From Isoetes taiwanensis (Eukaryota; Streptophyta; Lycopodiopsida; Isoetales; Isoetaceae), in assembly GCA_021234155.1 (NCBI GenBank), contig JAJEKV010000017.1, forward strand, positions 11,229,525 to 11,293,524: a stretch of 64,000 nt of DNA. Direction: 5' to 3'. The notes under the pieces were generated by a model that was not told where the DNA came from, made no database searches, and saw only the letters and a program-made list of their open reading frames with translations. Below are positions 2,548-47,674 of the stretch, piece after piece (positions within the stretch are counted from its first letter, which is position 1; each line of letters begins with the position of its first letter). The translations under genes were made by a program, and so were the position numbers.

Positions 2548-4310
2548 TAAAGTTCCGACACCTTCGCCATGGGAATTAGGGGCTAAGAGTTCAAGAGGTT
2601 CTACTATAAAGTAGAATGGTTTGGTGATTGGTAAATGCACCAGCCAAGATGAGTTAAGAGGAACAAGGAACGAGCATAGATCTAAGAGATTGATAGTATC
2701 TTAAGTTTTGATTATTATTCTGCTATGTGTAAGCTAGAAAAAGCTAAAGGAATGCAGCTCATCAAGGAGCTAAGTTTTGTCAAAAGTTATCGAAAAATAG
2801 GATGAAATGTTAAGAAGGATGTTTTCACGCTAGAAGGTAATGCTCCTACAAATTTCTATAACTCGATAGTGGTCCACGCTGCCATGTTACTTTAAAATAG
2901 ACCGTGAAAGGTGTGTAAGTGCCAAGGAGAGATTCTTATATGGACAATGGAAGCAAAATTATGTGATATTGATATACGCTTGTTGTTGGGCCAATTATAT
3001 CTCTTGAGATGATTTCGTGATGGGCTACATTTGATCTAAAAGTCACAACAAAGCGCTTGTGAGCCAAGCTTTGACCGAGGTTAAGTATACTTGGATTGTA
3101 TTTGACATATTTACGCCCGATGGCATGATGGTAGTTGCAAATTTTGTATTAACACAAAACAAATGTCGCTTCTGGCTATGTTGTAAATGCCGATTAGAAT
3201 AGGAACATACCCACTGTAGGGAGCAGCCATTGCAAGTAGACCGCATTACACCATCAAAGCTAAGGTGGAATCAAATGCTATAACGATGTGAAGTTTCACA
3301 TTTAATAGGACAAAACCTTGAGATTGTTGCCCATATAATTGTGCTCGACCGGACCGTTGTCGACATTGAAAGGATGTTAGTTGATGACAAGCCATAGAAG
3401 AAAGTTAAGTATTTGGCGTGCATTACACCATCGAACTTTCTCGCTAGTGATGGTTGGCACCAAGATCTTTGAATGGCTTGGGTTAATTTGTTGTGCGGTT
3501 ATATAGCCATATTAAGATACAATGTAATGGGGGACGGATTATGTTTTTTGTCACTTTTGGATTAGCTACCCAAGACGGTCATATGAATATATATCTAGTC
3601 CGAACCGGTATCTTCATAGTGCGCTTTTATCCCTAATAGAAAAAGTAGATTAACCTATGCATGTTCCTACGTTAAGTTTACTTCCAAAATGCACTTAGTT
3701 ATTTTGACTATGTGATAGATTAAGTTGGGACTACACCAATTTGGACAGAATAGTGGAGCTTTAAGCCTATATTGGTTACTAATATTTGGCCCGATTTGTT
3801 TGTCCGATACTTCTCAACTCAGCTACGATTTTGGTTCCCCTATTTTTATGGTGCTCACCCATTTGACATCATAAATTAAGGTTTTAAATAACCTTAACTA
3901 CTATATTTTTATACTTTAATAAATGCTACCACTAGCATGACCCATGGACATACATAACAAGGCCTTTAGAGGATCTCAAGATTAACAGTAGAATTAGTTA
4001 ATTTTCCTTATTGTAATAATCATGTCCTCATGAGATTGTCGCGAAAGACTTCGCTAAGCTTTTGATAATATTTTGTAATATTTGTATTACATGATTTTAA
4101 TACCCTCCACATTATACCAAAACTTAGTTGATTCTCGTGATAATGTGGAAGGGTATTGGGAATACCATGTTCTATTGCAAATGTGCAATTGAAGGGACCT
4201 GCATCGTAACATAGAGGAGGCTCGTAAGAGTTGGCAAAAGCTTAGTCTTCCGTGATTCAAGCAGCTTGGCTTCGGTAACCTCATGAGGACATGAGTTGAA
4301 TTTTTACAAT
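2548..4310 (+). other. Non-coding interior of the LARD-like element
   Basis: No gag, protease, RT, integrase or other recognisable protein is present in six frames. Two inverted repeats are visible. A 14-bp perfect pair (catgtcctcatgag at about 4021 with its complement near 4279) brackets about 260 bp just before the 3' LTR. Another imperfect pair links 3822-3860 with 4409-4446, the latter inside the 3' LTR. Their role is unknown; packaging or dimerisation structures are possible. Confidence 0.5.
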
Positions 4311-6970
4311 GGGAGAATGTAACTAACCTAGTGACCTTGGGGATATGATTTTTAGCAAGCTTATCTTATCTAAATATTGTGTAGTCCTATATTAGCATTT
4401 CGAATTTGGTGAGCACCATAAAAGCTGGGCTACCAAAATCATAGCATGTGTCGCTAATATCCGCACATCCCAATTTGCCCCGATTAAGGGAAGCCGCAAA
4501 ACTGCACCCTAGCATGCCTAATGGGCATCCGGCGTAATGCTCGCGCCAGGATAGCTGCCAGTGGAGATTTGATCTTATATAAGAGGAGGAAGAGCTGGGC
4601 CGAATTGCGTGAGGAATAGAGAAGAGAATCGAAGTCGGATGCAAAGCGCATAGATGGATTTGAAGCTTAAAGGTCGAAAGGAAGCTTGAAGCAAGGAGAT
4701 GATGATCAAATCGATTGCAAGCGTAAGCCATCCGAAAAACTAAGGTGGGATCTAATTCGCATGGGGGATTTGATGCATGCTTGGGAATTGCTTGTGGTAT
4801 GTATTGGGAATCTTGCGTAATAAACCTGGTGATAAGAAACTGGTTTTTGGGCTCATTCTAAACCCAATTCCGATTCTATGGAAAACCCAGCCTCATGGTA
4901 TAATCCGATTTGATTGTGTGATCTTCTCTCGCAAAACAAAGGGAAGGATTCGAGTCTTGATTCGATTTTGCCTCCTCCTCGATTTCCCCGGAATGCTTAT
5001 GTTTTGTAACCGCTTTGTTTCGCCAAGTCGCTTTTCCTTTGTGTTAGAGCTTAGTCTCATGGGTGAATAGCGTAATCATGATTGGGCCAAGCCTCGAACC
5101 CGCCTCCATCCCGAAAAGCGGGCCTATTTGTTGCCATGCCGCCAAAAGGAAACCTCGTGGATCCAAATTCTTGTCCGAATCCGGGCTTTGGGATGAAATC
5201 CGATTCCATCCGCTAGTTTGGGTCATGTGCCATAATCTGATTCACTGGATCTCTCAGAACTGATCCGTGAGATAGGCTCGCTTTGGGTTATAATCCCATT
5301 CTTGCTCTCAAAATTGTTGATGCCGCTAGAATTTGATGCCTTTGTGATAGAGCTAAGCATGATGCAACCAATGCTTAACGGATTTGCAAAAGCCCCGCCG
5401 CCGCGGACCTCGTTGTTGCAATTGTCTCCCGGGGATACCAAAGTCCTAGATCCCCATACATTTATATTAAAGCATTAAAGTAGTATTAACTTTAAGGTTT
5501 GGACCATACTTGAATATTGCTTCCTAGTTATAGAGGCCTTTGCTTGAAATCATGTTATATGGAACCATGGAGACCGAGGCGCTAAGTGCCGTGGTTGTGG
5601 TATGTGCTAAGGGAATCTCTTATGAACTCCTACCTAAGAATAGATTTATTTATGCTTGAACTTGTGAGGATCCAAGGAGTTAAGCGAATTATATTACCTA
5701 ATAATGTTGAACGCCACTTCTCCTAGGGAAGGAGGACCCGAGGGAATTTATGGAAGCCCCGGGCATAGTGCAGCCATGGAACCTTATAAGCTTAGTAGAA
5801 AGCACGGTTCAGCAAAGTAAACAAGTTGAGCTAACTAATGGCTCGCTGTATGTATCTCCATGCCATTGTTGATAACCTATCTATCCGCCTTGACCTCAGA
5901 GAGGCCGCCATTGTGGCATGTGTTTATTTGTGCCCTAGATAGCTGGTATATGCATTGAGCATGAAGGCTCTTATGAACCTTTTTAAGATATTACCCGAAA
6001 AGTTATGGCGCTTATATGTTTAGGGAGTCCCCGTTTGCTTGAGATGTGCAATGACGGTTGTCACTTGGATATGAAATATCTTGGTATGAACCTTATTGTG
6101 TTGCATTGCTCTATGGTTGTTCTTGGAAGTAAGATGCATGAGGATTCTATGATATCTCGTGATTGTATCAACCCCTAAAGTTATTGGTGATATTCTATCT
6201 TGTAAGGTCATGATGGATGATGTTGCATCTTTGCATTGCAAACTGACCATCTTCTGAGGGGTGGAATGGTCGCGGAGATCTCCGATCCGCTCTAGATGGC
6301 TAGACGGATGGCATGTTGCATTTGGCGCCCCACCTTCTGAGGGGTGGGTGGCCGTAGACTCCGGTGATCCCGCCCCGATGGCCCTGCTGGATGAGTTTAG
6401 CCCCTGCACGCATGATGGAGAGAGTGGTCTCCCTTGGGGTCGCAACCCAAGGATTACGCTTTTGGCATATGTGCATACATACGTAAGGTTGATGTGAATG
6501 TAAACATGCTTGTAGTATGAGTTCTAACTAATGCAGGGCATGGAGAAGGTGTAAATCTATTGTCTTCCTATCTTGGATGTTATATGCTAGATTGTTTTGT
6601 GGTTGATGTTGTGAATGCTCCCAAATGTTTCCTCCCCACTTAGTCCTTTTGTGGACTAACCCCTTGCATTGTTTGTGTATGTTTAAGAGGGTACGCCCCG
6701 AAATGAATGCAGATTCAATGGAGAGTCTAGGGATGAGGGCGCCGACAAATAGAGTGTTTTCCAAAGTCGCCTTCTAAGTGACTTATAAGGAGGACTTGTT
6801 GAGCTAGTATGAGTTAAAGAAGCATGCCAAACCCTATGAGTTTGGTCTTGTATGTAATTATCCGTCAATGGACTATACTTTATTGAGCATGTACATAAGT
6901 CTCGTGGTATGTTTAACTTAGATGTTAAACGTGTTGGTACAACGTTTAGGCCAAGGGGCCGTCCATTTCA
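4311..6970 (+). repeat. Polypurine tract and 3' LTR of the LARD-like element
   Basis: A purine run gggagaa (4311-4317) immediately precedes TGTAAC, the LTR start. The LTR runs 4318-6970 (2653 bp) and ends in ttCA. After 6970 the sequence switches to an unrelated Tat-type relic, whereas after copy one (2533) it continues into the primer-binding site, which defines the LTR end precisely. Confidence 0.75.
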
Positions 6971-8045: not shown

Positions 8046-9634
8046 TGTGATATTCCGTGAAAATATACGCTTATAAATATGTATATTTCCAGGTCTCATT
8101 ACCATACAAGTCTACTTCATAGCCTTGTATACCTTAGGAAGTGGTATATGCATATCTGCTATGTATATAACTTTAGATAACCTTAGGATAAGGCCCATTT
8201 CCCACATGGCCTTACCCTATTGGGCAATCGCCACACATGGCCATGTCCCATTGGAGCCACGGTCATCCCATGTAGACTCTAACCTATTAATCCTAAACCC
8301 TAACCCTAGATCTCTTTTCCTAGCCCTAACACCCCTGGAACCTTTTGCACTCTAAACTCGCTTCGAAAGGCCGCTTATGTGGCATATCCTAGTGCAATAG
8401 CCCCGTGAGTGCGGTAATGATCTTGGAGTGAGCTAGCCGACCACTTTGAGGACCATGGACACGCCAGAATGGGAGGGAGCGCGAGCGTATTTGAGTAGTG
8501 TTCTTAGTAGTTCATCCGAAGTTAGCACCCAGATGAGGTAGTAGTTTGTATCTAGAGTAGAGCCATCCTAGAACCCTTATTCAACATCTTGAACCCTAAT
8601 CAAGGAACCCTAACCGTAGTTAGATATGTATGATTAGGTTAGATGTTATTCTGATGATTATCATGATATGATGTTATGTGAAGTTGGTTGATCATGTTTG
8701 CTCCTCTTGTATTGGGAAGGGTAGAGACCTAGTAGCCTTACTTAGTAATGCTCCTAGTTGTGACCCTTTAGTTCCAGCTATTATGCGCGGCCTGCATAGG
8801 AACCCACCGGGCTACGGGCTAGGATGTGACTCCAGCACTACATAACGGGGCCGAGGAGATACCGAGGGAGGGTCCTCACTGAAGGCATATCGGGGACCCT
8901 ATAGTGGCTAGGCTTATGGTCTGGCCACTTCGCGGGGGCTGGGCATGGTCCCACACCTCCTAGGGCAATGGTGTTGCCCCCGCCTCTCAAGAGCTGCGTG
9001 TGTTGGCCCCGCTCTTGTTTTGGGGTTAAGTCGGGACGAATCGCGGTGTCGCCACGCATTGAGTCCTGCGGAACCTCTAGACCCCGAAAGGGAGATGAAA
9101 CCCTTCCCGGACGGACCGGGAGATGCAACCTGGAGTAGTCTCTATGGGTGATACCATGAGATTATGATCCCAAGGCTAGAGTCATGTCGAGCCCGATTCA
9201 GCCCATCTGCAAAGTATGCACAGAGGGGCGATGGTGTTGTCAACCCCTAGCCATTGTCTATAGCCAACCCCCGCCATTGTTATGACTCTACCGCTTCTAT
9301 CTTGAGGCCTTGCCGCCGCCTACCTCCCCATGAGTCCGAGCCTTGGGTAGGAGCTCACATGTTTTATGGCATATGTTTATCTCTTGCAGCTATGGATATG
9401 GGATGTGCTACCCTTCCCGTAGCATGATGTATTGTTATTGCTAGTTCGACGCTGTGTATGCTTCCACTGTGATAGGAGCCCATAGGGAAGGGCGAAGACA
9501 CCTTTTCATAACCCCCTTCTCGCACTAGGGATGCCCCGAGTGCGCAGATAGACGAAGGGGTCCGGTCGGTTGGACCTGATGGGGATTTCCTTTTGAGGGT
9601 ACTACCGCCGGCCGTATCTTTGTAGGGAGCCACA
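8046..9634 (+). repeat. 5' LTR of outer chromovirus
   Basis: Starts TGTGATATTCC and ends CCACA directly before the primer-binding site. It aligns with 30859-32457 over nearly its whole length. Differences between copies are concentrated in short indels, for instance CTGG against CCG and CTCCAG against CCCAG around 8516-8530 and the matching segment near 31340-31356. Confidence 0.85.
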
Positions 9635-9647: not shown

Positions 9648-10248
9648 ATGTTCTTGGTTGACCAGAACTAGCACTCCACCATGTCCCTAGTAAGTAGCTC
9701 CAACAGGCCTAATAGGGTGTGGAATGAAAATTTCACCATGGAACCCCTCGAAAATAGTGGAAAATTTTCTTGGGTACCGGGTCCATAAGAATACGCCAAG
9801 TTGTTAGATGGGGAAAAATAATGAGTCAAATTAACATTCTACTAAAGTTGAGGAAAATTATGCATCAGCATCAGATTTCACCCCAAATGGGTCAAGAATC
9901 ATCCCAATCCGAGGCCCTGTGAAAATGGCTAAAATTCATAATTGACACTTCAAACCATTAGGAAAAAAATCGAAATTCATGGTATAATACAAAGATTAAA
10001 CATATACCAATAAATGAGTATACTAAGATAATTAATATAAAGTGGGGGCAATAGGGCTATTAATGGTAGGAGAATATTCCCTAGAGCATCTCCCCTTTAA
10101 ATATCATCTTGCCAACCCCATTTTCTCCCTAACCTTGCCTAAACCTCCCCTTTGATAATCAGCTTAACGTAATCCGCTTTTCCTCGACCGCAAGATATGG
10201 CGCCGCGACTAAATGGACTGCCGAAGTATAGCCCAAGGCGACACTTCC
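9648..10248 (+). other. Untranslated leader before accessory gene A (outer)
   Basis: AT-rich and without a recognisable gene. A weak TATA-like tttaaatatc lies near 10095, about 150 bp before the proposed start of gene A. A segment with gtggaaaattttc (about 9760) resembles gtgggaaaatttttc in the inner element (about 15873), suggesting a shared leader. Confidence 0.4.
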
Positions 10249-11355
10249 ATGGCGGCAACAAGCAGCAGTCCAGCAAGAAGATCCCCGAAAGCATCTTCGG
10301 CCGGACGGAGAAGGAGTCGCCCAGCCCACGGTAATCCATTACTTTCCACGCCCCGTGAGGAGGCCCAGCATCTTCTCCGCGGGAGATGGGAAGGGCGGAC
10401 GAGACCGCCCACTTTGGTCTGCCGTCCACTGTGAGGAGGAGCAGCAGAGTAAAGCAGCAGCAAATTTAACAGCAACAAGAGAGCAAAGCAGTTAGGCGCC
10501 AGGAGCGTGAGGTTGGCACGCCAACCAAGAAGAAGGGCAAGGAGAAGGTGGGCTGAATGGCTCGAGGAGGGGGCCGCGAGGAAGAAGAGGGAGCGATAAG
10601 GAGGCGAAGAAGAAGGGAGAAGAGGTCCAAGAGGGACTGTAACCGGCCCAAGGGGACGGTCCACATCGAAGAACCTCGTCGGATCCTACCGACGAGGAGG
10701 AGGAGGAGGAGGAAGAAGAAGAGGAGAGTGCAGGAGCCGGGCAAACCGAAGAAGAGCCCGAAGAAGACGTCGGGGAACCCTCAAACCCCGACGCCCGCCC
10801 ACCGCCATACCCGAAGTGGCCTAAGCCACCTAAGGTAATCAAGAAGCAGGGCGAAGCCGGGAATTAACGCTGTAACAAGATTGTGAATTCCAAATACATT
10901 AAGATACCAAGAGTACCTCTGCAGATGGAAGAGGTACAATGACTGGTACTGTAAGCAGAACGTACAAAAGTATGTTAAGGGTGGGCGGCCGAAGAATCAG
11001 CCCAAGCCGCCACCAGCAAGACCAGAGCCGCCGAAGAAGGTCCATCATGGACCTAATTCGAGGCATGCGCGGGTGTTCCGGGAGATTAGGCACTTTCAAG
11101 AAGGCACTAATCTCATCGTGAAGGCGCCGCTCGAAGCCGCCTCCTTTGGGAGATCATGCAGACTTTCGCACTAACTACGTGGTGACACCCCTGATGATCC
11201 GGGCCCTGCAGGAGGCAGCAGAGGCGGAGCTGATCCAGCTCTTCAAAGAAGGCAATCTCTGCGCAATCCACGCCAAGTGGGTGACGGTGATGCCAAAGGA
11301 CCTTCACCTAGTGAGAAGGATTCGCAAGGAGAAGCCCCGAAGACCTCCAATATTG
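10249..11355 (+). pseudogene. Retrotransposon-borne histone H3-like protein (accessory gene A, outer copy, frameshifted)
   Basis: Three parts are visible in different frames. The start at 10249 encodes MAAT and then, one base out of frame, KQQSSKK, which lines up with the H3 tail at M, A, T3, K4, Q5 and K9. The middle (about 10682-10867) is strongly acidic and ends with PPPYPKWPKPPK. The end is a histone H3 fold. [19 protein letters not shown] (11079-11135) matches H3 alpha-N/alpha-1. After a frameshift, 11146-11355 gives [35 protein letters not shown] and [10 protein letters not shown], matching H3 alpha-2, loop 2 and alpha-3. Canonical H3 has R where this has W in AKWVT. MPKD rather than MRKD points to canonical H3, not CENH3, as the source. 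The gene lies between PBS and gag in the same orientation as the element. Frameshifts may be assembly errors. The fold is certain; the tail match is an inference. Confidence 0.85.
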
Positions 11356-12049
11356 TAAACCATATAAATATAAGTTTTCCCTGTATATTTTACTCATTAT
11401 CTATAAAAGTCCTTTTTCTCTGTAAATTAACCTCTTCCTTGATATGATAGTATTCTTGTATGAATTAAATGTGAGTAGAATTCTTTATATCATAATTGAA
11501 ATATTTATAATTGTTTAAATTAGCATGTAAATTTTAGCATAGAATCGTGGTTTGGCTCAAAATCAACCCACCCGGCCTACATTCACAAACACATATGCCC
11601 GAAACGCAGAGCCCTTTCGAGCGAATGGACCCGAGTCCCTTGATTTTAGTCAAAATTGATCCAATTTTTGTATTTAAAAATTCTAGAATGCTTAGAATCC
11701 ATTTAGAAATGTAGGGTAGCATTTAATCTTAGTTGAAAATATCAAAATTTAGTTAAGATCAACCCACTTCGGGTCGATTCGCTGAACCGCTTCACGTCAT
11801 GAACGAGACGCTTTCGCTAATGGACTCGAAGTCACCAAAATTGTACTTTTAGATGTCCAATTACTATGAAATAAATTGCTAGCTAGGTTAGAATTGATCC
11901 AAATAGACATGTTAGAATCTTATAACCCTTAGAAATGTTTAGTAGAGAGCAAAATAACCCACCTGTGATCGATTCAAGGCTAAACCGCCTCGCAAGGCCG
12001 CTAACGATATGCCTTTCGCAAGGCTAATGGACCCGAGTCCACCAAGTTT
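11356..12049 (+). repeat. AT-rich spacer and array of three ~195-bp-spaced imperfect hairpins upstream of gene B
   Basis: After gene A there is about 200 bp of AT-rich sequence, then three diverged copies of a module at about 11559-11647, 11758-11842 and 11951-12049. Each begins near ATMAACCCAC and ends near ggacYcgagtc-cacc or -cctt, and the two ends are imperfect inverted complements. In copy two, acttcgggtcgattcgc pairs with gcgaa/gctaatggactcgaagt. Centres are about 196 and 201 bp apart. The inner chromovirus has hairpins of different sequence but the same arrangement. No protein is encoded here. Confidence 0.65.
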
Positions 12050-14217: not shown

Positions 14218-15776
14218 TGACGCCTTCCAAAGACAAGATACCGGCCCCGTGACGATAATCGCATCGCCAATACGCCGCACACGCCACCCCGACCGACGGT
14301 ACCGACGCAGCCAGCCGGTAGCCCCTAGGGGGCAACTTACAAAGTGTGTGTGCATTTATTAATGTGCACATTTACCAATGTGCACATTTATCTAGGTGCA
14401 CACTTTCCCATGTGGACACCTTTATGCCACCTAGCCATTAAAGGCAGTAATATACCCAATTATCCCACATGCTTAAAGGGATAATTGGAAACCCTAGCCC
14501 TAACCCCTTGTCTATTTAGGTTAAGGAAACCCTAACTTGCTATTTTCGTCCCATAGGGTTTTAGAGCCTGCTTTGCTCGCTCAAAGGGTCAAAACCGCCC
14601 CCGTGACTGTGATGAGCTTAATTGCGCCATTAGTTTTCCTTGTTGGCTCCATCTTCAAGCAGCTCAAAGATGGTCGAACTCGTAAGGTGAGGAGCGAGCC
14701 AAGGATCGGGGAAGTCAATTTAATAGCCTAAACCGCCTTTACGCCATTGTTCAAGAGGGTTTAGCCTATTAAATTGCCCATAGCACCCAATTAGATTCTC
14801 GTGTACAGACTTCTAACTAAAGAACCTAACTCTATGATATAGATTAGATTTAGTTCTTTTTTCTTCTTCTATGATGTATATGGATGATGTATCTCTCAGG
14901 AACTCCTTTGTATTGGGAAGGGGGTAGAGACCCTAAAGCTTGCTAGTTGATGCTCCTAGATTAGCCTCTCTAGCACATCAGAGATTCGCCTCAGGCACGT
15001 GAGCCACACCGGGTTGTGGGTGAAGGGGCCGACCGGGCTTATAAAGAGGTTCGTTCTTCGACTTTTGAACCATCCTCCGGTGTGTAAAGTCTACCGGGGA
15101 TCATTGTGGACTAGGTCTAATGGCTTGCCACCGCTGCAAGGCATGGGCTCGACACCCGGGAGTGATGCATCACTCTCCGTTCAAGTCAATAAGGGCAAGG
15201 GGTCTCTAGTCACCTTGTGTCGCATGTAGATCTCCTCGAGGGAGAGATCCCTACCGCCCCATCGAACCGGGAGATGCAACCCAGAATAGCCCCTTTGGCT
15301 ATGCATCCATCCTGGCTACAACAGTCCCAACACGCTTTAGCCTATTCTCGCAAAGTGTGCAATGTGAGGGGCGGATGGAGGGACAACCCTAAGCCATGTT
15401 CTCATGCCGCCCAAATCCATTGCCATGAATTATGTCCGCAATGAATCCTTCGAGACCCAAGCCACCACCCCTTGAGTCCGAGCCTTGGGTAGGATTTCCC
15501 ATGTGAGGTACCGACGCTGTCTATGCAGATGTGTGATGAGCCACCCCACGAGGTAGTATGTGATATTGATGTTGTGTAATCGACATGTATGTTTACGCTC
15601 GCAGCCTAGGGTCGAACTCGAGGGAGACAGGGTAAATGACCCCTTCATTCTTCCCAATCGAACTCATCAAGGCTGCAAAGGATACGCGGAGGGCCATGTA
15701 TCGCTGGAGCTGGTATGGGGATGAACTCATGTTTGTATACCGGTGAGAGTATCAGATATGAGTAGGGGACGCCACA
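14218..15776 (+). repeat. 5' LTR of inner chromovirus
   Basis: Aligns with 23879-25438 over its full length. Contains an internal tandem of 'tgtgcacattta' near 14366-14400. Parts of the second half (for example tattgggaagg..gtagagacc) resemble the outer element's LTR, showing distant relationship. Differences between the pair are mainly short indels at CG-, CAG- and CTG-rich places. Confidence 0.9.
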
Positions 15777-15984: not shown

Positions 15985-16240
15985 GTCTCACACGTCCGCC
16001 ACAGTCTAAAAACAAAACTTCGCTTTTTGAGTCAAGCAAACGTGAGACATTGGGCCAAGAACACCTTAAAACTTGATGAATTTCAGAAAAGTAACATGGT
16101 GAATCGAGTTCTAAGATAAGATTTAGTTAGAATAGTATGTTTCAATCACGTAAATTAGTCAAAAATGTACAATGTCTCACACGTCGTGCCAGGACTAAAA
16201 ACCAAACTCTAGTTTTTGATCTGGGCGCAACGTATGAGAC
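15985..16240 (+). repeat. Hairpin pair 1, upstream of gene A
   Basis: Two long imperfect hairpins, 15985-16048 and 16174-16240. Each begins GTCTCACACGT and ends with the complement ACGT(A/G)TGAGAC or close to it, with inner complementary blocks GTGCCAG/CTGGGCGC and AAAAAC/GTTTTT (best preserved in the second hairpin). Centres are about 191 bp apart. The same hairpin recurs twice upstream of gene B. The placement before a TATA box suggests a regulatory element or an RNA structure. Confidence 0.8.
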
Positions 16241-16340: not shown

Positions 16341-16350
16341 CTATAAATAG
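16341..16350 (+). promoter_or_regulatory. TATA box of accessory gene A (inner)
   Basis: ctataaatag, identical to the TATA box in front of gene B (17883-17892), lies 100 bp upstream of the ATG at 16451. This gives the H3-tail gene a promoter separate from the LTR. Confidence 0.65.
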
Positions 16351-16450: not shown

Positions 16451-17344
16451 ATGGCCAGAACCAAGCAGACCGCTCGAGTTCCTCGATCTGGTGAATCGCG
16501 CAGCGCCTATGATCCTAGCCTGATACAGAGGATGCTTCAGGAGCGCCTTTTCAACCAAAGGGACCAGACTTCATCGAGTGAGGGAGAACCTTCGGAAGAG
16601 CACCGAGAGGAAGGATCCCAGCAGGGAGGAGCACAGGACGGGGAGATGGACCAGCAGGTCGACCGAGAAGAGGAGGTGCACTCAGATGCAGGGACAGAGC
16701 TGCTCGAAGAGGAAGAGGAGGGAGCAGAGCGAGAAAGGAGAACCAAGGCTCGTGAAGAGCAGAGACTGCTGACTCCCGAGCCGACCATCGACGAGCAACT
16801 CGAAGCCTGGATCCGCGAGAAGGAGGCAGAGGAGCAAGAAGAACAGAGGGAGCCAATGCTCGAGCCAGCTGAGGAAGAAGAGCTCGCGGCATGGATCAAA
16901 AAGCATGAAGCAAAGGAACGCCGTCGAGAGAAGAAGGCAGAAAAGAAGAGGAAGAGGGAAGACGAGGAGGCGAAAGCGGCCGACGAGCTGAAGAAGAAGA
17001 AGGGGAAATTCGTGGTGGTGGGCAAAAGAAAGCTCATGAAGGTTAAACGAATAAAGACCCCCAACCCCAAGGTCGTCATCACCGAACGATCAGCTGACCA
17101 GCCCCCGCCCTCCTCCGACGACTCTGAAGATGAAGACTTCAACCCCAACACCGAGGGTGGAAGCTCTTCTAAACCCTCAGCTGATGAGCAGGCAATACCC
17201 GACCAGGAGCAACCCGACCCGGAGCAGCCGGATCAAGTGCAGAAGCCCCCTCCATATTCGACTTGGGACAGGAAGAAACAGCCACGCCCTGCCCGAGAAT
17301 CCTATGTGATGAAAATTTTGTTAATACAAAAGAATTTTGAGTAG
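16451..17344 (+). CDS. Histone H3-tail mimic protein with charged linker (accessory gene A, inner)
   Basis: An intact 297-codon ORF on the element's coding strand. Residues 1-9, MARTKQTAR, are identical to the start of histone H3 including K4; H3 K9 is replaced by V (RVPRSGES follows). Residues about 40-150 are acidic with a duplicated motif (EQLEAWIREKEAEE and EELAAWIKKHEAKE). About 150-190 is a strongly basic, NLS-like stretch (KKAEKKRKRED, KKKKGKF). The C-terminus is proline-rich with KPPPYSTW, matching RPPPYPKW in the outer gene A. No histone fold follows; compared with the outer copy it has probably been lost or replaced. The start is chosen at the first ATG after the TATA box, and the exact H3 match supports it. 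Role is unknown: it could bind H3-tail readers, modifiers or the element's own chromodomain partners. Chance identity over nine residues at the N-terminus is very unlikely, given the H3 fold in the sister gene. Confidence 0.85.
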   Translation: MARTKQTARVPRSGESRSAYDPSLIQRMLQERLFNQRDQTSSSEGEPSEEHREEGSQQGGAQDGEMDQQVDREEEVHSDAGTELLEEEEEGAERERRTKAREEQRLLTPEPTIDEQLEAWIREKEAEEQEEQREPMLEPAEEEELAAWIKKHEAKERRREKKAEKKRKREDEEAKAADELKKKKGKFVVVGKRKLMKVKRIKTPNPKVVITERSADQPPPSSDDSEDEDFNPNTEGGSSSKPSADEQAIPDQEQPDPEQPDQVQKPPPYSTWDRKKQPRPARESYVMKILLIQKNFE

Positions 17345-17695
17345 ATTATATGTGTAATCTTACTTAATTAAGTGGAGTTAGCAAGTAATAGCTTTTGTTT
17401 TGAAAATAGGACATCTCTAGAGCAAATAGTGAGATGTCTCACACGTCGCGCCAGGTCTAAAAACAAAACTCCAGTTTTTGAGCTGGGCGCAACGTGTGAG
17501 ACCTTGCCCAAATTTGCCCAAATCACCTCCAAACCGACCAAGTAAGGGGTCAATTCTGCCTAACTCGATAAGCCTAGCATGATTAGACCCTTAGATCACC
17601 CAAATTGGACAAGTTTTGACCAAAATGGGGCCGATGTCTCACACATCGCTGGCCAGAGCAAAACAAAACTTCAAGATCCGGGCTAACGGTGAGAC
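17345..17695 (+). repeat. Hairpin pair 2, between gene A and gene B
   Basis: Hairpins at 17436-17502 and 17636-17695, centres about 196 bp apart. In the first, two arms of about 29 nt (GTCTCACACGTCGCGCCAG.. and its near complement ..CTGGGCGCAACGTGTGAGAC) pair with only a few mismatches around a loop of about 9 nt. The sequence before 17436 is AT-rich, likely the 3' end of gene A's transcript. Confidence 0.8.
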
Positions 17696-18006: not shown

Positions 18007-19572
18007 ATGGCAATCACCCGACTTCAAAGCGATGGTACAGTCACAAGGCCCATGCCGGCCGAGGCCGACGCCAACGACATTTTCCGAAGTCTTCCTGAAA
18101 GACATAGATGTCCAGCCACTTTGCACGCAAACCCAAAGATATAGACAAGTTCTGTCCGAAGTTCCAAGCTAGGTAGGACCGCCCTTAGTGCAGCCTTTCC
18201 CCTTTGTACAAAGCTACTTTGTTCCCTGTGCAATCCCTTCAAGCAGCCTTTTGGGTGATATTCCAAACATTGCCAAGCACTGACCAACAAGGCCCAGAGG
18301 TTGCCAGACTACATGGTCTTGACAGTTGACAGGACCAAGTATTTCTCTTACACCGCTTCCTTGGCAATTTTTCTCTCCCACCGTGCCGAAAATCCCATGG
18401 GGGAAACCTCTATCCCTCCCATGAATGTGGACCCCTTAGCCTCCTCAAGACAGAAAGCAGCCTTTTTGGCAAGCACTAACAGAGCAAGAAGGAAGGGAAG
18501 AAGACGAAGAATCAGAAGAAGAGGACTACGTCGAGCTCGATCCAGCAGAAGAGCAGCGACTAGCAGAGCAGGAGTTGCAGGAATTCGAACGGAGCCGGCG
18601 GACCCTCAGAATCGCTCCACCACTTGGGCTAGGTATCACAAGCCTAGCCCCCATCATCATCGACGGCGAAGAGTACCTGCTCCTCAGCGACATCCAGAAC
18701 CTCCCTGAATGCAGGGAAAGGGAGTATCGACTCGACGAGCTGCTGCACCAACTGCGGCAACAACCAGAGCTGGATGATTTCATTGTCCGGGGGGCTTCCG
18801 ACTGCCCACTTCAAGTAAGAGAAGCCGACACTTACACAGGAGAGTCGACTTCTGACATCCAAGCCTACAGCAACATCAGGCATATGATGGAAGCTTGGGA
18901 ACTACCGACTGAAGAGGAGTTTTATGCCATCCAGGAACAGATGGGAATCCGTGGCAAGACCTCAAGCATTTTAATGCCGAGCTCTTCGACACCAGCCCAC
19001 ACAGAGAGAAGAGGCGAGTTCGACCTCAAACGAGCTTCATCAACAGTTAGGGACTACATAGAGTTCATCGAGGTGGAGGTCGACGAGTATGCCTAAGACA
19101 CAGAGTCAGCGGGCAAGGAGGCTTAAGACTGACAATGACGCACAAACGACAAGTCATCTATACTATCTCCCCCGCCGATCGGGAGAATAGCGGTAATACA
19201 CCGCAAATTCAGCCCCAGGGGCGAAGAGGGAGTATTCATGCTCATCGCGCTCTCAGGCTTTGGCCGGCATGCTCGGCTAGCTGCCAACATCGACTATGCC
19301 GTCTTAGTCAAGAGAGCGATGGCACTCGACATCTTCGACTTCGCCATACCTCCCGACGGCAGGGAAGACTGGCAGTGACCGCAACTTACACCTCCGACCG
19401 CAGGGTAGAGGAATTGGTGACAGCTTTGCAGGGCGGGTCATCAACCAACGTCCTCAGGAACTTGGGACGCTCGGTAGGAATGGCCCAAGTTAAGAAGTTC
19501 CTCGAGGATAACCCATCCTACCGGGCGATTTCAAGAATAGTTAGACTCTTGATCCCTGGGCGCTTGTATTAA
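18007..19572 (+). pseudogene. Accessory gene B, unknown family (inner copy, frameshifted)
   Basis: Begins MAITRLQSDGTVTRPMPAEA at 18007 and passes through several frames. The segment 18301-18490 reads LPDYMVLTVDRTKYF. From about 18490 a Glu-rich frame leads into RRTLRIAPPLGLGITSLAP and EFIEVEVDEYA (to 19096). The segment 19210-19370 reads GFGRHARLAANIDYAVLVKR. The last part, 19381-19572, contains RNLGRSVGMAQVKKFLEDNP. Only the final part has a visible counterpart in the outer element. It does not match histones, gag capsid or any family I recognise. It lies between gene A and gag with its own TATA box and hairpins. The number of frameshifts means the true protein cannot be read reliably here. 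Confidence 0.5.
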
Positions 19573-21060
19573 GATATTATATAATATAAAAATAATTTCT
19601 TTTTGCTTTAAATGTTTTGTTGACGATTTTCTTCCACAATTATACCAACAAACATATATAATGCAAGAGAACAAATAAAACTAACCATATAGCCATGACC
19701 TACTTGTGCATGCAAATTAGAAGCACAAGATCGCCAGAACAACAACTAAAAACCATAGGGAAGAACAGAGTCCGCCTAGGCCGCGACCCGCAAGGAGCCT
19801 ATATGAGGCATTTGGAGCCATGACCCCGTGAGGAGGAAATGTCACGATGAGGACGGACCTCGAAAGCAGATAAAGGCTTTCCCCGGTCGTCACAAGCAAG
19901 GAGTTGGTTCGACGGCAACGCCAACCAAGCCACAAGCATCAGCTCGAAAGCAGAAAGGACAAGAGGAGGAGCAAGAGAAGGAGGTCCCCTCAAAGACGAA
20001 TCCTCCGACTCAAGCTCTGACTCGACTGGATTTCGCTGAAGAGGTCAACCAAAGGCAGACCGGCGGGACGCATGCATACACAAGGAGACGAAGACCTCCC
20101 ACTACCGTAAGAAGGTAGACTCGCATTGGGAAACGCTTTGGAAGGCCGTGAAGCCGGAGCAATTCTCAAAGCGAACAGCGTCGCATGGAGGCAGAGGTTT
20201 ATTCGATGAGATGAGTGAGTATGGTAACGCCTATGGTATGAAGGACAAGGATAAAGGCAGGTGGTGGCAACAGCCAACCCGGGGGCAAAGACACATTTGG
20301 TGGAAGGGGTATGCCAAGGCCCATGGCTTGCAGGGATGCTTGCGGTGTTCGTAAAGTTTGCTAAAGCTTTCTGCCGCCATTACGCCCCAAGAGAGCACAA
20401 GTCCAACATGATGATGCCAGCTCTACAGTTGCAACAAATTGGAAAACAAATCACCCGTAAATATACAGAGGAATTCATGAGACTAAGGCTTTATGTGCCA
20501 AAGTTGAGTGAAAAGCATGCAAAGGAGAGCTATATTGAGGGGTTGAATGATGAGATCCGCAGTTTGTAAGGGCAATAAGCCGTGAAGACAAGATCGGGCG
20601 AGTCCAAGGCAATAAGCTTGCAAGGGACTCTGGCCCCGTAATAGCGGTAGAGGCAGCAGTGATACCGTGATAAAGGCAAGGCAACAGGAGTTATAGCCCG
20701 AGGGCAGCCAAACCAGTCCAAATAGAGCCCCATATAGTGGCAAACTGGGGAAGCAGCAGGAGAAGAAGCAGGTGTCCTTCAAGGAAAAGCAGGAGGGGTC
20801 AAACTACTCCAAAGCAGTGCGATCCTTTTTGCAGGCAATGCCCAAGGAAAAGAGGCAAGAGTGCATAGAAAAGCAGCTTTGCTTCAGGTGTTTCCAGCCA
20901 GGCCATAGGACAGCGAACTGCCCCTACGTCATGAGCGCAGCGCTAGCGGAGTTGGGAGGATGGGACACTCCGTCTGACGACGACGGCGAGGCAGCCCGCG
21001 ACTATATTCAGGGTGAGTGTCATATCTTTGCCGCAATAGACACAGAACAAGCAGAGAACT
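19573..21060 (+). pseudogene. gag (capsid and nucleocapsid) of inner chromovirus, frameshifted
   Basis: After an AT-rich gap (19573-19720), gag-like sequence follows. The capsid part (about 20220-20569) shows the usual pattern of a retrotransposon gag: VKFAKAFCRHYAP, then EEFMRLRLYVPKLSEKHAK and YIEGLNDEIRSL. The nucleocapsid carries one CCHC zinc knuckle, CFRCFQPGHRTANC, at 20880-20921, then an acidic tail (SDDDGEAARDYIQGEC). Frames change at least twice. The tail runs directly into the RNase H segment because protease and RT are missing. Confidence 0.75.
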
Positions 21061-22930
21061 GCCCCAGTCTTGACAACCGCCCCAGTCTTGACCCTGCCGG
21101 ACCCAGAGAAAGATAAGCTTGTGGCGACAGATGCGAGTAAGATAGCCACAGTTGCAGTGCTCATGCAGGAAGAGCGTGTGGTAGCGTATGATTCCAGGAA
21201 GATGAACGACGCCGAAACGCGCTACCCGACGCATGATCTGGAGTTGCTAGCCATTGTCAGAGCACTAAGGATTTGGAGGCATTATTTGCTGGGAAGGAAG
21301 TTTCAGTTGGATATTGATCACCAGAGCCTTCAATATATCTTCACCCAACCACTCCTCAACCTAAGGCAAAGGAGGTGGATGGAATTCCTTGAGGAGTATG
21401 ATTTTGACATAGTGTATAAGCCCGTCAAGCTTAATGTTGTTGCAGATGCCCTCTCCAGGAGGCCATTCGGGACGAGAACGCATTGTAATGCTATATCAAC
21501 TCTTTCGAGTGAGTTTGGTAAGAAAATTGAGGAGACATTGCCATTGGATAATGATTTCAAGGAAGTATGGGCAAGCCTCTCTAGGGAGGCTAGAACAGAT
21601 GAGCGGGAAGCCTTCAAACATTATAAGAAGGAAGGCAACCTGTTATACCATAAAGACAAGTTGTGCGTGCCCGAATCATCAGGTGTAAGGAAGTTGATTC
21701 TCCACGATACCCACAAGAGTCCAATAGCTGGCCACGCAGGATTCATGAAGACATATTTCAAAGTGCGCAGCAGCTATTATTGGCCAGGGATGAAGAAGCA
21801 AGTAGCTCGCTACATCAAGGAATGTCATTTATGTCGCCAGACGGCGAGCAGCTTTCTGTGGCATTGGAACCCTTAGCGGTGCCAAACGCTAAGTGGGAGG
21901 TCATCAGCATGGACTTCATAACAGGGCTTCTAAGGACAGTAAGAGGGAAGGATGCCTTAATGGTAGTGGTCGACAAGTTGTTGAAGATGGCACATTTTGT
22001 GCCTTGCGTGACCACGCATTACCCGCCATGGATACAAATAAGCTCTTCACCAAAGAAATCTTCGTGCCCATGGCATGCCAAGGGAGATCATCTCCCACGA
22101 GATCCGGTTCATGAGTGCCTTTGGCAAGACCTCTTTGGCACAATTCGCACGGCTATCCATGAGCATCGCCTATCATCCTCGACGGATGGGCAAACGGAGC
22201 GACCAACAGATTTTGAGGATATGCTACCTAAACTATGTTTGGAACAAGCAAGGTATGTGGAAGAATTTATTCACTTGGTGGAGTTTGCGATAATAGCACC
22301 AAGCAAGAATCATCCCAAATGTCGCCGCTTATGATCAACTACGGCTATCAATGCCTAACCCGCATTAATTTGGCACAATCCCGCGTCAAAAGTAGAGGTT
22401 TCGCAGAAGAAATGTTGGCCGACATGCGCAAAGAAATGGTGGAAGAAGTTCGAGGATATCTTCCGCGCAAGAAGGAGTCGATTAAAGAGCATCACGACAA
22501 GCATCGAACAAATGAGAGTTCCAAGTTGGCTTACGACGCATGGCTCAAGATCAAGGTGAAGCAGCGAAGCTCCGCGATCGAAATTGTAAGAAGCTTGCTT
22601 CAAGGTGGGCTGGACCTTCGTAATAGCCCGTGAGAGTAGGAAATCAATCCTACAAGTTAGACTTGCCAAAGACACCTAAAGATTCATAAAGTCTTCCACG
22701 GAGTTTATTGAAGAAGATACCCCAAATCCGCATCGAAGTCTTGGATACTCAAACGCTTGTTGGAAATGATGGAGGAGCAAACCGGAAATAGTTTCCGAAT
22801 TGATTCTTGATAAAGCCTTCAAGAAAACAAGGAGATCGAAGTTTCTCAATATTTGGTCAAGTGGAAACACTTGCCCGCGGAAGACGCCGACATGGGTACT
22901 TAAGAAAGATCTATTAAAGCAAAGCATCTA
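21061..22930 (+). pseudogene. pol remnant of inner chromovirus: RNase H, integrase, chromodomain (protease and RT deleted)
   Basis: The 268-codon frame 21070-21876 starts at the end of the RT connection (TAPVLTLPDPEK) and contains RNase H motifs VATDASK, DLELLAIV, DHQSLQYIF and NVVADALSRRP. It then carries the integrase HHCC finger (HDTHKSPIAGHAGF...CHLCRQ). The core continues with SMDFITGL in another frame (to 22334). The third acidic region is frameshifted (SIAYHPRRMGK). The C-terminal chromodomain (about 22790-22930) has ELILDKAFKKTRRSKFL and TWVLKKDL, with a frameshift in the middle. Aligns with the outer element throughout. Protease and RT are absent. Confidence 0.85.
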
Positions 22931-23878: not shown

Positions 23879-25438
23879 TGACGCTTCCAAAGACAAAGAT
23901 ACGGTCCCCGTGACGATACCGCATCGCCTCGCCACGCCGCACACGCCACCCTCGACCGACGCGGTACCCGACGCCTAGCCAAGGTGTAGCCCCTAGGGGC
24001 AACTTGCAAAGTGTGTGTGATTTATTAATGTGCACATTTACCAATGTGCACATTTATCTAGGTGCACACTTTCCCATGTGGACACCTTTATGCCACCTAG
24101 CCATTAAAGGCAGTATTATACCCAATTATCCCACATGCTTAAAGGGATAATTGGAAACCCTAGCCCTAACCCCTTGTCTATTTAGGTTAAGGAAACCCTA
24201 ACTTGCTATTTTCGTCCATAGGGTTTTAGAGCTATGTTTTGCTCGCTCAAAGGGTCAAAACCGCCTCCCAGACTCTGTCTGAGCAAATTGCGCCATTAGT
24301 TTTCCTTGTTGGCTCCATCTTCAAGCAGCTCAGAGGATGGTCGAACTCGTAAGGTGAGGAGCGAGCCAAGGATCAGGGTATTTAGTCAATTTAATAGCCT
24401 AAACCGCCTTCCGCCATTGTATCAAGAGGGTTTAGCCTATTAAATTGCCCATAGCAGCCAATTAGATTCTCAGGTACCAGACTCTAACTAAAGAACATAA
24501 CTCTATGATATAGATTAGATTTAGTTCTTTAGTTCTTCTATGATGTATATGGATGATGTATCTCTCGAACTCCTTTGTATTGGGAAGGGGGTAGAGACCC
24601 TAAAGCTTGGTAGTTGATGTTCCCAGATTAGCCTCTAGCACACATCAGATTCGCCAGGTAATGTGAGCCACACTGGTTGTGGGTGAAGGGGCCGACCGGG
24701 CTTATAAAGAGGTTCGTGTTCTCGACTTTCAAAGATCCTCCGTGTGTAAAGTCTACCGATCATTGTGGACTAGGTCTAATGGCTTGCCACCGCGGTGGGC
24801 AAGGCATGGGCTCGACACCCGGGGAGTGATGCGCCACTCTCCGGGTTCAAGTCGAATAAGGGTAGTGGCCACCACCTGAGTCAAAGATGTAGATCTCTCG
24901 AGGGAGAGATCCCTACCGCCCCATCTGAATCGGGAGATGCAACCCAGAATAGCCCCTTTGGCTATGCATCCCACGGCTACAACAGTCCCAACACTTTTCA
25001 TTTATTCTCGCAAAGTGTGCACAAGAGGGGCGGATGGAGTGGACAACCCTAAGCCATGTTCTCATACCAAACCAAATCCATTGCCATGAATTCTCGCCCC
25101 AATAAACTTTCGAGACCCAAGCCGGGCCACCCCTTGAGTCCGAGCCTTGGGTAGGATTTCCCATGTGAGGTATTGATCGCTGTCTATGCAGATGTGGTGA
25201 TGAGCCACCCCACGAGGTGGTATGTGATATTGATGTTGTGTAATCGACATGTATGTTTACGCTCTTCCAGCCTAGGTCCATTCCGAGGGAGACAGGGTAA
25301 TGACCCTTCATTCTTCCCAATCGAACTCATCAAGGCTTGCGGTGATACGCGGAGGGCCCCGATCGCGTGGAGCTGGTATGGGGATGAACTCGCTTGTATA
25401 CCTGCGAGAGTACCGTGATATGAGTAGGGGACGCCACA
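23879..25438 (+). repeat. 3' LTR of inner chromovirus
   Basis: 1560 bp, TGACGC...GCCACA, same boundaries as the 5' copy. It is followed by CTACA, which resembles TTACA before the 5' LTR. Confidence 0.9.
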
Positions 25439-28059: not shown

Positions 28060-29925
28060 GTCCAAGCCTCCTTTGAGAAGCTCAAAGAGGCACTAACCAC
28101 AGCACCGGTCCTCATCCTACCACATGCAAGAAGGAAGGGTAGTCGCATACGACTCCAAGAAGATGAATGATACAGAGTAACGCTACCCGACTCATGACCA
28201 AGAGCTTTTGGCTATTGTAAGGGCCTTGAGGATCTGGAGACACTATTTGTTGGGAAGAAAGTTTCAATTAGATACAGATCACCAAAGTCTCCAGTACATC
28301 TTCACGCAACCACTCCTCAATCTAAGACAAAGGAGGTGGATGGAGTTTCTCGAAGAGTACGACTTCGAAATAGTCTACAAGCCTGGCAAGTTGAATGTAG
28401 TTGCAGACGCCCTCTCCAGGAGGCCATTCGAGACAAAAACCCATTGCAATGCCATATCGATTCTTTCAAGTGAGTATGGCAAGAGGATTGAAAAAACGTT
28501 GCCATCAGACGGCGACTTTAAGGAGGTATGGGCAAGCCTCTCTAAAGAGGCAAGAACAGATAAGGAAAGGGAGACTTTCAAGCATTATAAAAAGGAAGGT
28601 AACCTGCTATATCATAAGAATAAATTGTGTGTACCAGAATCTTCGGGAGTAAGGAAGTTAATACTCCATGATACACACAACAATCCCATAGCCGGGTATG
28701 CAGGGTTTATGAAGACATATTTCAAGATAAAAAGTAGTTATTTCTGGCCAGGCATGAAGAAACAGATAGCCAAATATATTCGGGAGTGTCAGCTATGTCA
28801 GCAAACCAAAGCGGAGCAACTCCGAATTCCAGGAGCTTTAGAGCCATTGCCAGTGCCAAAGGCAAAATGGGAAGTCATAAGTATGGATTTCATTACGGGA
28901 CTCCCAAGAACGATAAGAGGCAAGGATGCATTGATGGTGGTTGTGGATAAGCTGTCCAAGATGGCACACTTTGTGCCTTGTAGAACCACAGATACGGCGC
29001 TAGACACTGCCGTCTTATTCACAAAGGAGATTTTTAGACTCCATGGCATGCCTTGTGAGATAATCTCGGATAGAGACTCAAAATTTATGAGTGCATTCTG
29101 GTAAAATTTGTTTAGCACCATCCAGACCAAGCTCTCCATGAGCACGGCCTATCATCCTTAAATGGATGGTTAGACGGAATGCACCAACAGAATCATTGAA
29201 GACATGCTAAGGAATTATATTTGGAGTAAATAGTCTAAGTGGAATGATTTCATCCACTTAGTAGAGTTCGCCTACAACAGCACGAAGCAGGAATCGTCGC
29301 AGATGTATCCTTTCATGATTAATTATGGGTACCAGTGCCTGACCCCTGATACATGGCACAACCCAGTGTCAAAGGTAGAAGTCTCCCAGCAAATGCTATC
29401 AGATATGCAGCAGCTGGTTGAAGAGGTAAGGGGATATCTATTAGCAGCAAGAAGTCGGCAAAAGAGTGTAGCCGACAGGCACAGGACCGTAAGGGAATTC
29501 AAGGTAGGCGACATTGTGTGGTTGAAGATTAAGGTGAAGCAAGCTAAGCTTCGGATAGGGAACTGCAAGAAACTTGCTCCTAGGTGGGCGGGTCCCTTTA
29601 AGATCTTGGAGCGGGTGGGCACCCAGACCTACAAGCTAGATCTCCCGGCGCACCTCAAAGTCCATAAGGTCTTCCACGTGAGCCTCTTAAAAAGGCACAA
29701 CCCAAATCCTGATGAGGTTTTGGAAACTCCAACCCTGTTGGAAATGACGGAGGAACAAGTCGAAATTGTGCCTGAATTGATTCTTGATAAGGCATTCAAG
29801 AAGACCAGGAGGTCTCAATTCCTCCAATATTTGGTCAAGTGGAAGCACTTGCCCGTGGAAGATGCAACGTGGGTATTGAAGCAGGATTTAGAGAAGATTT
29901 AGAGAAGCAATACCCGGACTTCATG
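28060..29925 (+). pseudogene. RNase H, integrase and chromodomain of outer chromovirus
   Basis: The segment 28208-29104 (298 codons) holds DHQSLQYIF and NVVADALSRRP of RNase H, then integrase with MDFITGLPRT and EIISDRDSKFMSAF (first two catalytic acids). The first RNase H acid (TDAS) is missing through a deletion of about 60 bp just upstream, compared with the inner copy. In the HHCC finger the second H is Y (GYAGF against GHAGF). Past 29104 the third integrase motif is hit by TAA and TAG where the family has glutamines (HP-MDG-TE). The segment 29303-29902 carries the integrase C-terminus and a chromodomain: VEIVPELILDK, QYLVKWKHLPVEDATWVL. Chromodomains in such integrases bind modified H3 tails and guide insertion. 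Confidence 0.9.
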
Positions 29926-30858: not shown

Positions 30859-32457
30859 TGTGACGTTCCAGGGAAATATACGCTATAAATATGTATATTT
30901 CCGGGTCCGTCACTATACAAGTCTACTTAAGTAGCCTTATATACCTTAAGAAGTGGTATGGGTGCATATTTAAGTTATGTATATACTTAGATAACCTTAG
31001 GATAAGCCCATTTCCCACATAGCCTTACCCTATTGGGCAACCATACATGGCCATGTCCCATTGGAGCCACGTGTCATCCCATGTGGACCCTAACCTATAT
31101 TAACCTAAACCCTAACCCTAGACCTCTTTTCCTAGCCCTAACACCCTGGGAAACTTCTTCGCACTCGAAACTCCGTTTCGAGTGTCGTTTGCTGTGGCAT
31201 AGCCTAGTGTAGCAGCCCCCAGAGTGCGTGTACGATCTTGGAGTGAGCACGGCTTCGACCACTTTGAGGACCATGGAGACGCCAGGAATGGGAGGGAGCG
31301 CTTCGGGAGCAGGTATTTGGAGTAGCGTTCTTAGTAGTTCATCTGGAAGTTAGCACTCCAGATGAGGTAGTAGTTTGTATCTAGAGTAGAGCCATCCTAG
31401 AACCCTTATTCAACATCTTGAACCCTAATCAAGGAACCCTAACTGTAAGTTAGATATGTATGATTAGATTAGATGTTATTCTGATGATTATCATGATATG
31501 ATGTTATGTGATGTTGGTTGATCATGATTGCTCCTCTTGTATTGGGAAGGAGGGTAGAGACCTAGTAGCCTTACTTAGTAATGCTCCTAGTTAGATTCTT
31601 TAGTTCCTATTATTATGCGGCCTGTGCATAGGAACCCACCGGGCTACGAGGGCTATGATGTGACTCAGCACTACATAACGGGGCCAGAGGAGATACAGAG
31701 GAAGGAAGGGTCCCCGCCGAAGCTGACTCTTGGGGACCCCCATAGTGGGCTAGGCTTATGGCTGGTCACTTAAATGTGGGCTGGCATGGGTCCGGACACC
31801 TCCCAGGGGCAATGGTGTTGCCCCCGCCTCTCAAGTTGCGGTGTTGGCCCCGGCTCTTGTTTTGGGGGGTTAAGTCAGGGATGAATCGTGTGTCGCCACG
31901 ATTCCCTAGCCACCCGTGGAACCTCTAGACCCCGGGAAGGGGAGATGAAACCCTTCCTGCCTCGACGGACCGGGAAATGCAACACGAGTAGTCTCGATGG
32001 GTGATACCATGAGATTAAGTGATCCGGAAGGCTAGAGTCATGTCGAGCCGATCTAGCCCATCACGCAAAGTATGCAGGGAGGGGCGAATGGAGTGGTCAA
32101 CCCTAGCCATTGTCTATAGCCAGCCCCCATTGTTATGACTCGATGCTCTATCTTGAGGCCTTGCCGTCGGGTCTACCTCCCCATGAGTCCGAGCCTTGGG
32201 TAGGAGCTCACATGTTTTATGGCATATGTTTATCTCGGTTGTAGCTATGGATATGTGGATGTGCTACCCTTCCGGGTAGCATGATGTATTGTTATTGCTA
32301 GTTCTGACGTTGTGTATGCTTCCTACCGTGATAGGAGCCCATAGAGGAAGTTGGCGCAAGACACCTTAGGTGTCCCCTTCTCGCACTAGGGATACCACAG
32401 GTCTGAGATAGACGAAGGGCCCGTGCGGTCGAAGGACTGGATGGGGGATTTCCTACA
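30859..32457 (+). repeat. 3' LTR of outer chromovirus
   Basis: Starts TGTGACGTTCC right after the polypurine tract and aligns with 8046 onward. Homology stops at ggatttcct. The 5' copy has about 40 further bases there, so the 3' copy has lost its last part apart from perhaps a final ACA. Confidence 0.8.
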
Positions 32458-42250: not shown

Positions 42251-42279
42251 GAGCAACTTGAATGCCTTGGCTGGATACT

Positions 42280-47669: not shown

Positions 47670-47674
47670 TTGTC

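Follow-up and report, generated by a model that had tools for sequence, protein, structure and literature searches.

A histone H3-type gene with a long arm inside its tail in Ty3/gypsy chromoviruses of the quillwort Isoetes taiwanensis

The window, i.e. the whole stretch of 64,000 nucleotides analysed here (contig JAJEKV010000017.1, positions 11229525-11293524), contains two LTR retrotransposons on the plus strand, the inner nested inside the outer, older one. Repeat comparison placed the LTRs of the inner element at 14218-15776 (5') and 23879-25438 (3'). They are 89% identical, and the flanks of the element read TTACA and CTACA, matching at four of five positions. Its coding remains comprise a zinc knuckle (weak, below the Pfam cut-off) followed by RNase H and integrase zinc domains (20697-21876); by eye, chromodomain remnants were seen and no reverse transcriptase was recognized in the listed frames of this copy. 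The outer element has LTRs at 8046-9591 (ends approximate) and 30859-32454 that are 86% identical, without a target-site duplication in the flanks as cut, and encodes an integrase C-terminus with a chromodomain (29234-29902; PF00385, E 7.8e-9). Other repeats are present in the window. Direct repeats of about 2.4 kb, 93% identical (167-2527 and 4611-6964), possibly form the LTR pair of a short element, and a 2.0-kb LTR-like pair, also 93% identical (37389-39374 and 45689-47670), encloses minus-strand ORFs at 40830-43308 that look like pol by their letters. Positions 62013-62520 and 62703-63219 form an inverted repeat whose arms, each about 510 bp long, are 96% identical and lie 182 bp apart.

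Downstream of the inner 5' LTR, a single open frame runs on the plus strand from the ATG at 16451 to the TAG at 17342-17344. It encodes a protein of 297 amino acids (P0001) that begins MARTKQTARV and opens MARTKQTARVPRSGESRS.... The original prediction of an exact H3 start here holds: the first nine codons (16451-16477) give MARTKQTAR, identical to histone H3 through R8, and the codon at the K9 position is GTT, for valine (16478-16480). A TATA box of its own, also predicted, lies upstream (TATAAATA, 16342-16349), and PPPY is encoded at 17246-17257. As had been proposed, the PPPY region is common to the outer element, since residues 221-274 of P0001 align with window positions 10676-10825. That match falls within a decayed gene of the outer element (plus strand, 10197-11358), recognized by Pfam, alignment and comparison with relatives, which keeps a tail remnant, PPPY and the predicted H3 fold (11134-11358; PF00125, E 2.3e-13), the latter 58.6% identical to H3 over 58 residues. 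P0001 itself matched no Pfam family at E 0.1. Genes of the P0001 kind are referred to below as type A and those of the outer-element kind as type B.

Relatives were sought in the whole genome (1,658,258,908 bases in 1110 contigs), where P0001 gave at least 148 matches, some of them pieces of one locus. Twenty-eight loci (L001-L028) were compared, 20 chosen mostly for long open frames and eight others including the window copy, L001. The tip, the arm and a histone fold are joined in one frame in 14 of the 28, giving proteins of 419-451 amino acids. Set against these, the window ORF lacks about 500 bp at 17307-17312, where the coding sequence of relatives continues through the remainder of the arm and the H3 fold to its stop codon. 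In BLAST comparisons, the matching window sequence ends at about 17307-17313 on the left of the missing stretch and resumes at about 17307-17321 on its right; the stretch is present in 23 of the 24 correctly oriented relatives. L002 gave no BLAST match beyond 17309, yet the end of its fold is visible by eye; L003, L004 and L008 were wrongly oriented in this run and are outside the 24, and separate reading found an open fold in L004 and L008. Splicing was considered as the source of the gap and ruled out, as the junction has no GT-AG and its 3-bp repeat fits a deletion. Because of this deletion, the final residues of the window ORF correspond to untranslated DNA in the relatives. By comparison with its relatives, then, the window ORF arose by deletion from a histone H3 variant gene and is not a fold-less tail mimic, although taken alone it would pass for one. 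The earlier description of the ORF as intact is correct for the open frame and misleading as to length, and the idea of an H3 tail without an H3 fold fails, as the absence results from the deletion in the window copy and relatives carry the fold.

Full-length type A proteins, of about 420-450 amino acids, consist of the H3 tip, an arm of about 300 residues and a complete H3 histone fold. Copies with open frames read MARTKQTARK-A/P-RPGE or close to it, and continue with an arm of acidic and basic character, then PPxYPxW, a helical segment and the H3 fold. In the representative P0002 (from L009), the fold was recognized as PF00125 at E 1.5e-28, and residues 318-443 align with residues 11-134 of H3 chains in the PDB at E about 4e-29; PF00125 was also recognized in one example each of types B and C (the latter described below). 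Residues 1-8 of the H3 tail are kept in most type A copies, while the remaining tail is displaced by the arm and poorly kept. From GG to ALREI, type A counts 36 residues, one more than the 35 of host H3, which places the arm inside the tail, near residues 10-12; GG is found in 12 of the 14 copies and GR in two, whose printed count starts one residue earlier. The alignment thus shows a protein that begins as H3 for about its first 10 residues, continues with the arm of about 300 residues and resumes H3 at about residue 12, from where it follows H3 through the fold to the C-terminus. We regard the full gene as almost certainly a histone H3 variant encoded by a retrotransposon. By eye, no ARKS-like motif is left near K27 in the displaced tail, from which the K27 mark is probably absent. 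In an alignment of 18 sequences covering types A, B and C and the host, 24 of the 26 invariant columns lie from residue 327 on. A centromeric variant (CENH3) is characterized by a longer loop 1 and a diverged tail; here loop 1 shows no insertion or deletion relative to host H3, and the tip is canonical.

The sequence evidence for the H3 fold is stronger than the structure model. The AlphaFold model of P0002 (18 rows) has a mean pLDDT of 58, about 46-79 in the fold, and a pTM of 0.22. Helices are placed with moderate confidence at the positions of the H3 helices, and the arm is largely of low confidence or modelled as single helices. Foldseek retrieved nucleosome H3 chains with this model at E about 2e-5, with TM of about 0.47-0.60 (about 0.55 by target) and an rmsd of 6.6 or more.

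Type A folds are 0.52-0.59 identical to host H3 (19 folds). At each of R69, R72, R83, C110, H113, K115, R116, D123, L126 and I130, no more than one of the 19 departs from H3, and in type B no more than one of six folds departs at each of R83, C110, H113, K115, R116, D123, L126 and I130. We take the kept set to include residues of the H3-H3 bundle and residues contacting DNA at the dyad, and residues 87-89 to be those that govern chaperone choice. Other sites have changed: R63 is replaced by P in 19 of 19 folds and K56 by R in 17, residues 87-89 are altered, and R129 and K122 are each retained in 8 of 19. These changes suggest that loading may be altered. The whole pattern fits a type A protein that could retain pairing with both H4 and a second H3 and that would be handled differently by chaperones. 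Fifteen canonical H3 genes of the host (L029-L043) show three fold versions, reading SSAV, STAV and SHAV at 86-89.

The tail tip was compared in 101 N-termini, 25 from L001-L028 including the window copy (L008, L014 and L027 were unreadable and dropped) and 76 from short stretches; four further stretches repeated loci already counted and were left out. At least seven of the eight residues of ARTKQTAR are present in 95 of the 101, and fewer in six. Because of this, and because 14 copies run from the tip into an H3 fold, chance is excluded as the source of the H3-type tip of the window ORF. Among the 95 tails, K4 and T3 are found in all 95, R2 in 93 and A1 in 92. Position 9 is K in 62, V in 30, and I, A or T in one each, so that V accounts for 30 of the 33 losses of K9, although the sample, drawn from the top hits of a search with a V9 sequence, may be biased towards V9. 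Position 10 is A in 46, P in 43, T in 3, L in 2 and S in 1, and the loss of S10 is general in the sampled tails. A FastTree phylogeny of 27 loci places the V9 copies L001-L006 and L016 together with L007, which has A at position 9, and sets L026 (V) apart; an open fold is retained in the V9 copies L004, L005, L006 and L016. Together, the grouping and the open folds indicate that the loss of K9 is a natural state of a subfamily that has multiplied, and this loss evidently marks that subfamily. The statement that the protein keeps K4 and drops K9 therefore stands for the subfamily of the window and not for the family, in which K9 is kept in 62 of 95 tails.

Selection was estimated in the 14 intact type A copies, which were picked for open frames; this choice drops nonsense changes and should not alone lower missense rates in the tail alone. 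Omega is 0.036 for tail residues 2-9 (dS 0.75), 0.055 for residues 2-15 and 0.081 for the fold (dS 0.79). Along the arm it is, in order, 0.41, 0.19, 0.155, 0.32 and 0.16, and dS over the regions measured ranges from 0.62 to 2.0. Of 421 ten-codon windows, MARTKQTARK has the sixth lowest pN and is the only one outside the fold among the lowest 15, the other 14 lying in the fold. The signal is weaker for residues 2-11, with 46 of the 421 windows as low, because residue 11 is A or P. By these estimates, tail and fold are under strong purifying selection. Both omega and the N-termini read agree with the expectation that the H3 tip is constrained at the protein level and common to many elements; relatives were checked for an unrelated N-terminus, and the related elements share the MARTKQTAR-type start. 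A captured passenger gene without function, multiplied by transposition, is highly improbable: mobile DNA can amplify host genes, and the fold has been lost from the window copy, but omega of 0.04-0.08 in tail and fold at dS of about 0.75-0.79 speaks against it, as does the same layout kept by two diverged lineages.

Outside the fold, no stretch is more constrained than the tip. This would also suit a soluble decoy, the kind of role originally suggested for the ORF, which would stay out of nucleosomes, its tip sequestering K4 readers, LSD1-type enzymes or enzymes acting on K9, and its fold sequestering H4 or chaperones. The arm, mostly of low confidence or single helices in the model, would allow this, but the kept H3-H3 bundle and dyad DNA residues would be needless for a pure decoy, which we consider quite unlikely.

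The outer fold gave at least 150 matches in the genome. Six type B loci chosen for long frames all carry arm and H3 fold, and two of them join tip, arm and fold in one frame (L066, MARTKQTYRKTGP...; L065, MARTKCTMKN...). The remaining four have a disrupted or frame-shifted start, e.g. MAHTKYTARK... in L061. Type B folds are 0.65-0.69 identical to host H3 (6 folds). PPxY, a late-domain-like motif, is found in all 14 intact type A copies. It could point to a packaging protein that compacts element cDNA or RNA inside particles by means of its histone fold and its charged arm, which has basic and acidic blocks. Five of the six type B loci, however, lack PPxY and read RPPYPKW, and packaging leaves the exact H3 tip unexplained, so we give it a still smaller probability than the decoy.

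A canonical H3 query also gave at least 150 matches. Among those listed, 15 are 96-98% identical over all 136 residues; the other 135 are H3-like, several of them in frames of 400-567 amino acids. These include a further kind, type C (L048, L050, L055 and L060), in which a near-canonical H3 fold is fused to an unrelated N-terminal domain, MAITKSAPDPSTLSIVEIYAMI or close to it. The three read whole (L048, L050 and L055) have the unrelated N-terminus MAITKSAPDPSTLS... or close to it, and L050 together with L060 shows gag, protease and integrase domains downstream of the H3-type gene. Type C folds are 0.87-0.88 identical to host H3 (seven distinct folds picked as best H3 matches). In an unrooted tree of 40 rows, which was built without CENH3 and leaves 22 of 37 inner branches open, types A (99/99), B (95/95) and C (93/99) each lie on one side of a branch, and C groups with the canonical H3s. 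Two captures of H3, or one with uneven rates, would both fit this tree.

The promoter region of the type A gene is conserved. All 28 loci, the window copy among them, have TATAAATA ahead of the H3-type ATG; the distance is mostly 104-119 bp, the exceptions being 89 and 48 bp. Ahead of gag lies another conserved extra ORF, ORF2, which starts MATSDFRRWYSASAHAAEAD... (window; L028, L015 and L011). It is decayed in the window (plus strand, 18007-19234) and conserved in relatives, and TATAAA lies about -122 from its ATG in 11 of 12 cases. No Pfam family was recognized in two pieces of ORF2 scanned, its structure model (mean pLDDT 36) is too poor for use, and a search of the outer element at E 1e-3 did not detect it. 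Repeat comparison identified a 67-bp imperfect palindromic repeat on the plus strand before the H3-type ORF (16174-16240) and a second copy between this ORF and ORF2 (17436-17502), with a 45-bp partial match at 15985-16027; the window thus has one full palindrome before each ORF and one partial copy, and L009 has two before each ORF (1044-1300 and 2979-3245). The palindromes are possible binding sites for a shared regulator, and the arrangement suggests two accessory genes with matched promoters. An origin of the repeat from host H3 genes was considered and rejected, as it was not found within 1.5 kb of the 15 canonical genes.

The carriers are Ty3/gypsy chromoviruses, with paired LTRs, gag-pol order and a chromodomain, and the H3-type gene sits between their 5' LTR and gag. 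In 21 of 25 correctly oriented loci, window included, the H3-type gene is preceded by the 3' half of the inner LTR, which was not found at that threshold for L006, L011, L012 and L020. L009 and L059, whose LTRs are 94% identical over 855 bp, together provide protease, reverse transcriptase, RNase H, integrase and chromodomain in this order. In L059 (type A), Pfam recognized RVP_2, RVT_1, RT_RNaseH and rve (rve below the cut-off) and an integrase C-terminal chromodomain (PF00385, E 5e-10). Gag was identified by Pfam families in the type C locus L060 and read by eye in type A. A gene of the same layout is therefore shown to recur in many lycophyte chromoviruses.

That the same elements encode an integrase chromodomain (PF00385) makes integration steering conceivable: the H3 fold would dock on host chromatin, or the tip would bind the element's own integrase chromodomain, and copies would land in chosen chromatin. 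No sign of direct contact was seen, the chromodomain keeps by eye only one of three cage aromatics, and V9 copies would lose the K9me ligand; we consider this reading unlikely, though less so than a decoy.

The kept fold residues and the exact tip lead us to infer a nucleosome-type use with an extended, readable K4 tip, and an H3 variant used in nucleosomes on element DNA is, by a slight preference, the best explanation overall. There are readers of the H3 tail that need a free Ala1. With the initial Met removed, Ala1 would be exposed as in H3, and the exact tip, with Ala after Met, fits such readers. Using the surfaces for H3-H3 and H3-H4 contact that it has kept, the protein would pair with host H4 and might join nucleosomes on or near element DNA, where the long arm would hold the ARTKQTARK tip out to K4 readers and writers. 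Element chromatin might then resist silencing, or the protein might steer the integration complex. Resistance would be strongest in the V9 subfamily, because V9 cannot be K9-methylated, and the 62 of 95 tails that keep K9 argue against simple K9 avoidance for the whole family. Nucleosome-type use combined with anti-silencing or steering falls just short of an even chance. Bolder, and held more tentatively, is the proposal that a retroelement clade builds its own chromatin: a custom H3 that carries the native tip on a 300-residue arm would be loaded onto the DNA of the element as a silencing-resistant nucleosome, and the clade would have divided into K9 and V9 strains that differ in being open or closed to marking by host K9 methylation. 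If true, a plant retrotransposon clade would have taken over the main chromatin signal of its host, and naturally occurring K9 and V9 forms of a single selfish histone, in hundreds of copies, would be available for selection tests. The H3 variant would then also be a candidate partner for the chromodomains of plant retrotransposons, whose ligand was not known (PMC3350952).

Outside the genome, P0001 had no homologs at E <= 0.01, nor did the P0002 arm (255-352) at the same threshold among 36 candidates. Whole P0002 matched at least 2193 proteins at E <= 0.001 (7937 candidates scored), the best 120 of them at 36-56% identity over 23-50% of the query. All six examined of these 120, the top four included, are gene models with at least two canonical H3 units, and in the top match, P0003, the fold and first 16 residues align with P0002 and the arm does not. 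No relative of the window ORF, a pol piece or the outer fold was found among viral contigs, and plasmids yielded none.

Several known systems share features with the quillwort gene. The influenza NS1 protein is a fold-less H3 tail mimic whose tip meets H3-tail readers; its mimic is C-terminal, whereas the quillwort tip is N-terminal on a real H3. Among the open-licence papers listed, judged by titles and the beginnings of abstracts, none concerned a retrotransposon-encoded histone H3, and 'histone' is absent from the main text of the genome papers of I. sinensis (PMC10541799) and I. taiwanensis (PMC8566536). In the latter, as its available part describes, repeats resembling plant proteins were filtered out (PMC8566536), and pipelines that discard such repeats may hide elements of this kind. 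An orchid Ty3/Gypsy element likewise combines plant Ty3/gypsy coding capacity with an extra regulatory domain, but the captured domain, as described in the portion available, is an m6A RNA demethylase and not a histone (PMC9289625). Giant and other DNA viruses have single H3s with altered tails, as here, but are DNA viruses (PMC9145170); the main text of this review uses 'transposon' once and 'retrotransposon' not at all. Bracovirus H4 is a parasite-borne histone close to that of the host, with an altered N-terminus, and enters host nucleosomes according to the accessible text of PMC9145170 and PMC5423620. It differs in being an H4, in belonging to a wasp DNA virus and in having its 38 extra residues ahead of the tail, not inside it. 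The nearest precedent in the sources available is the H3-like gene (H3L) of a hAT DNA transposon in the fungus Pyrenophora tritici-repentis, present in 26 very similar copies, for which the portion available reports ESTs and suggests drift (PMC3538342). Like the quillwort gene, it is H3-like, carried and multiplied by a mobile element, and has insertions in the N-terminal tail (PMC3538342). The quillwort elements, with LTRs and gag-pol in place of the terminal inverted repeats and hAT domain of such transposons, differ from it as LTR retrotransposons with hundreds of diverged matches, strong purifying selection, a conserved TATA box and, in most sampled copies, an exact ARTKQTARK tip.
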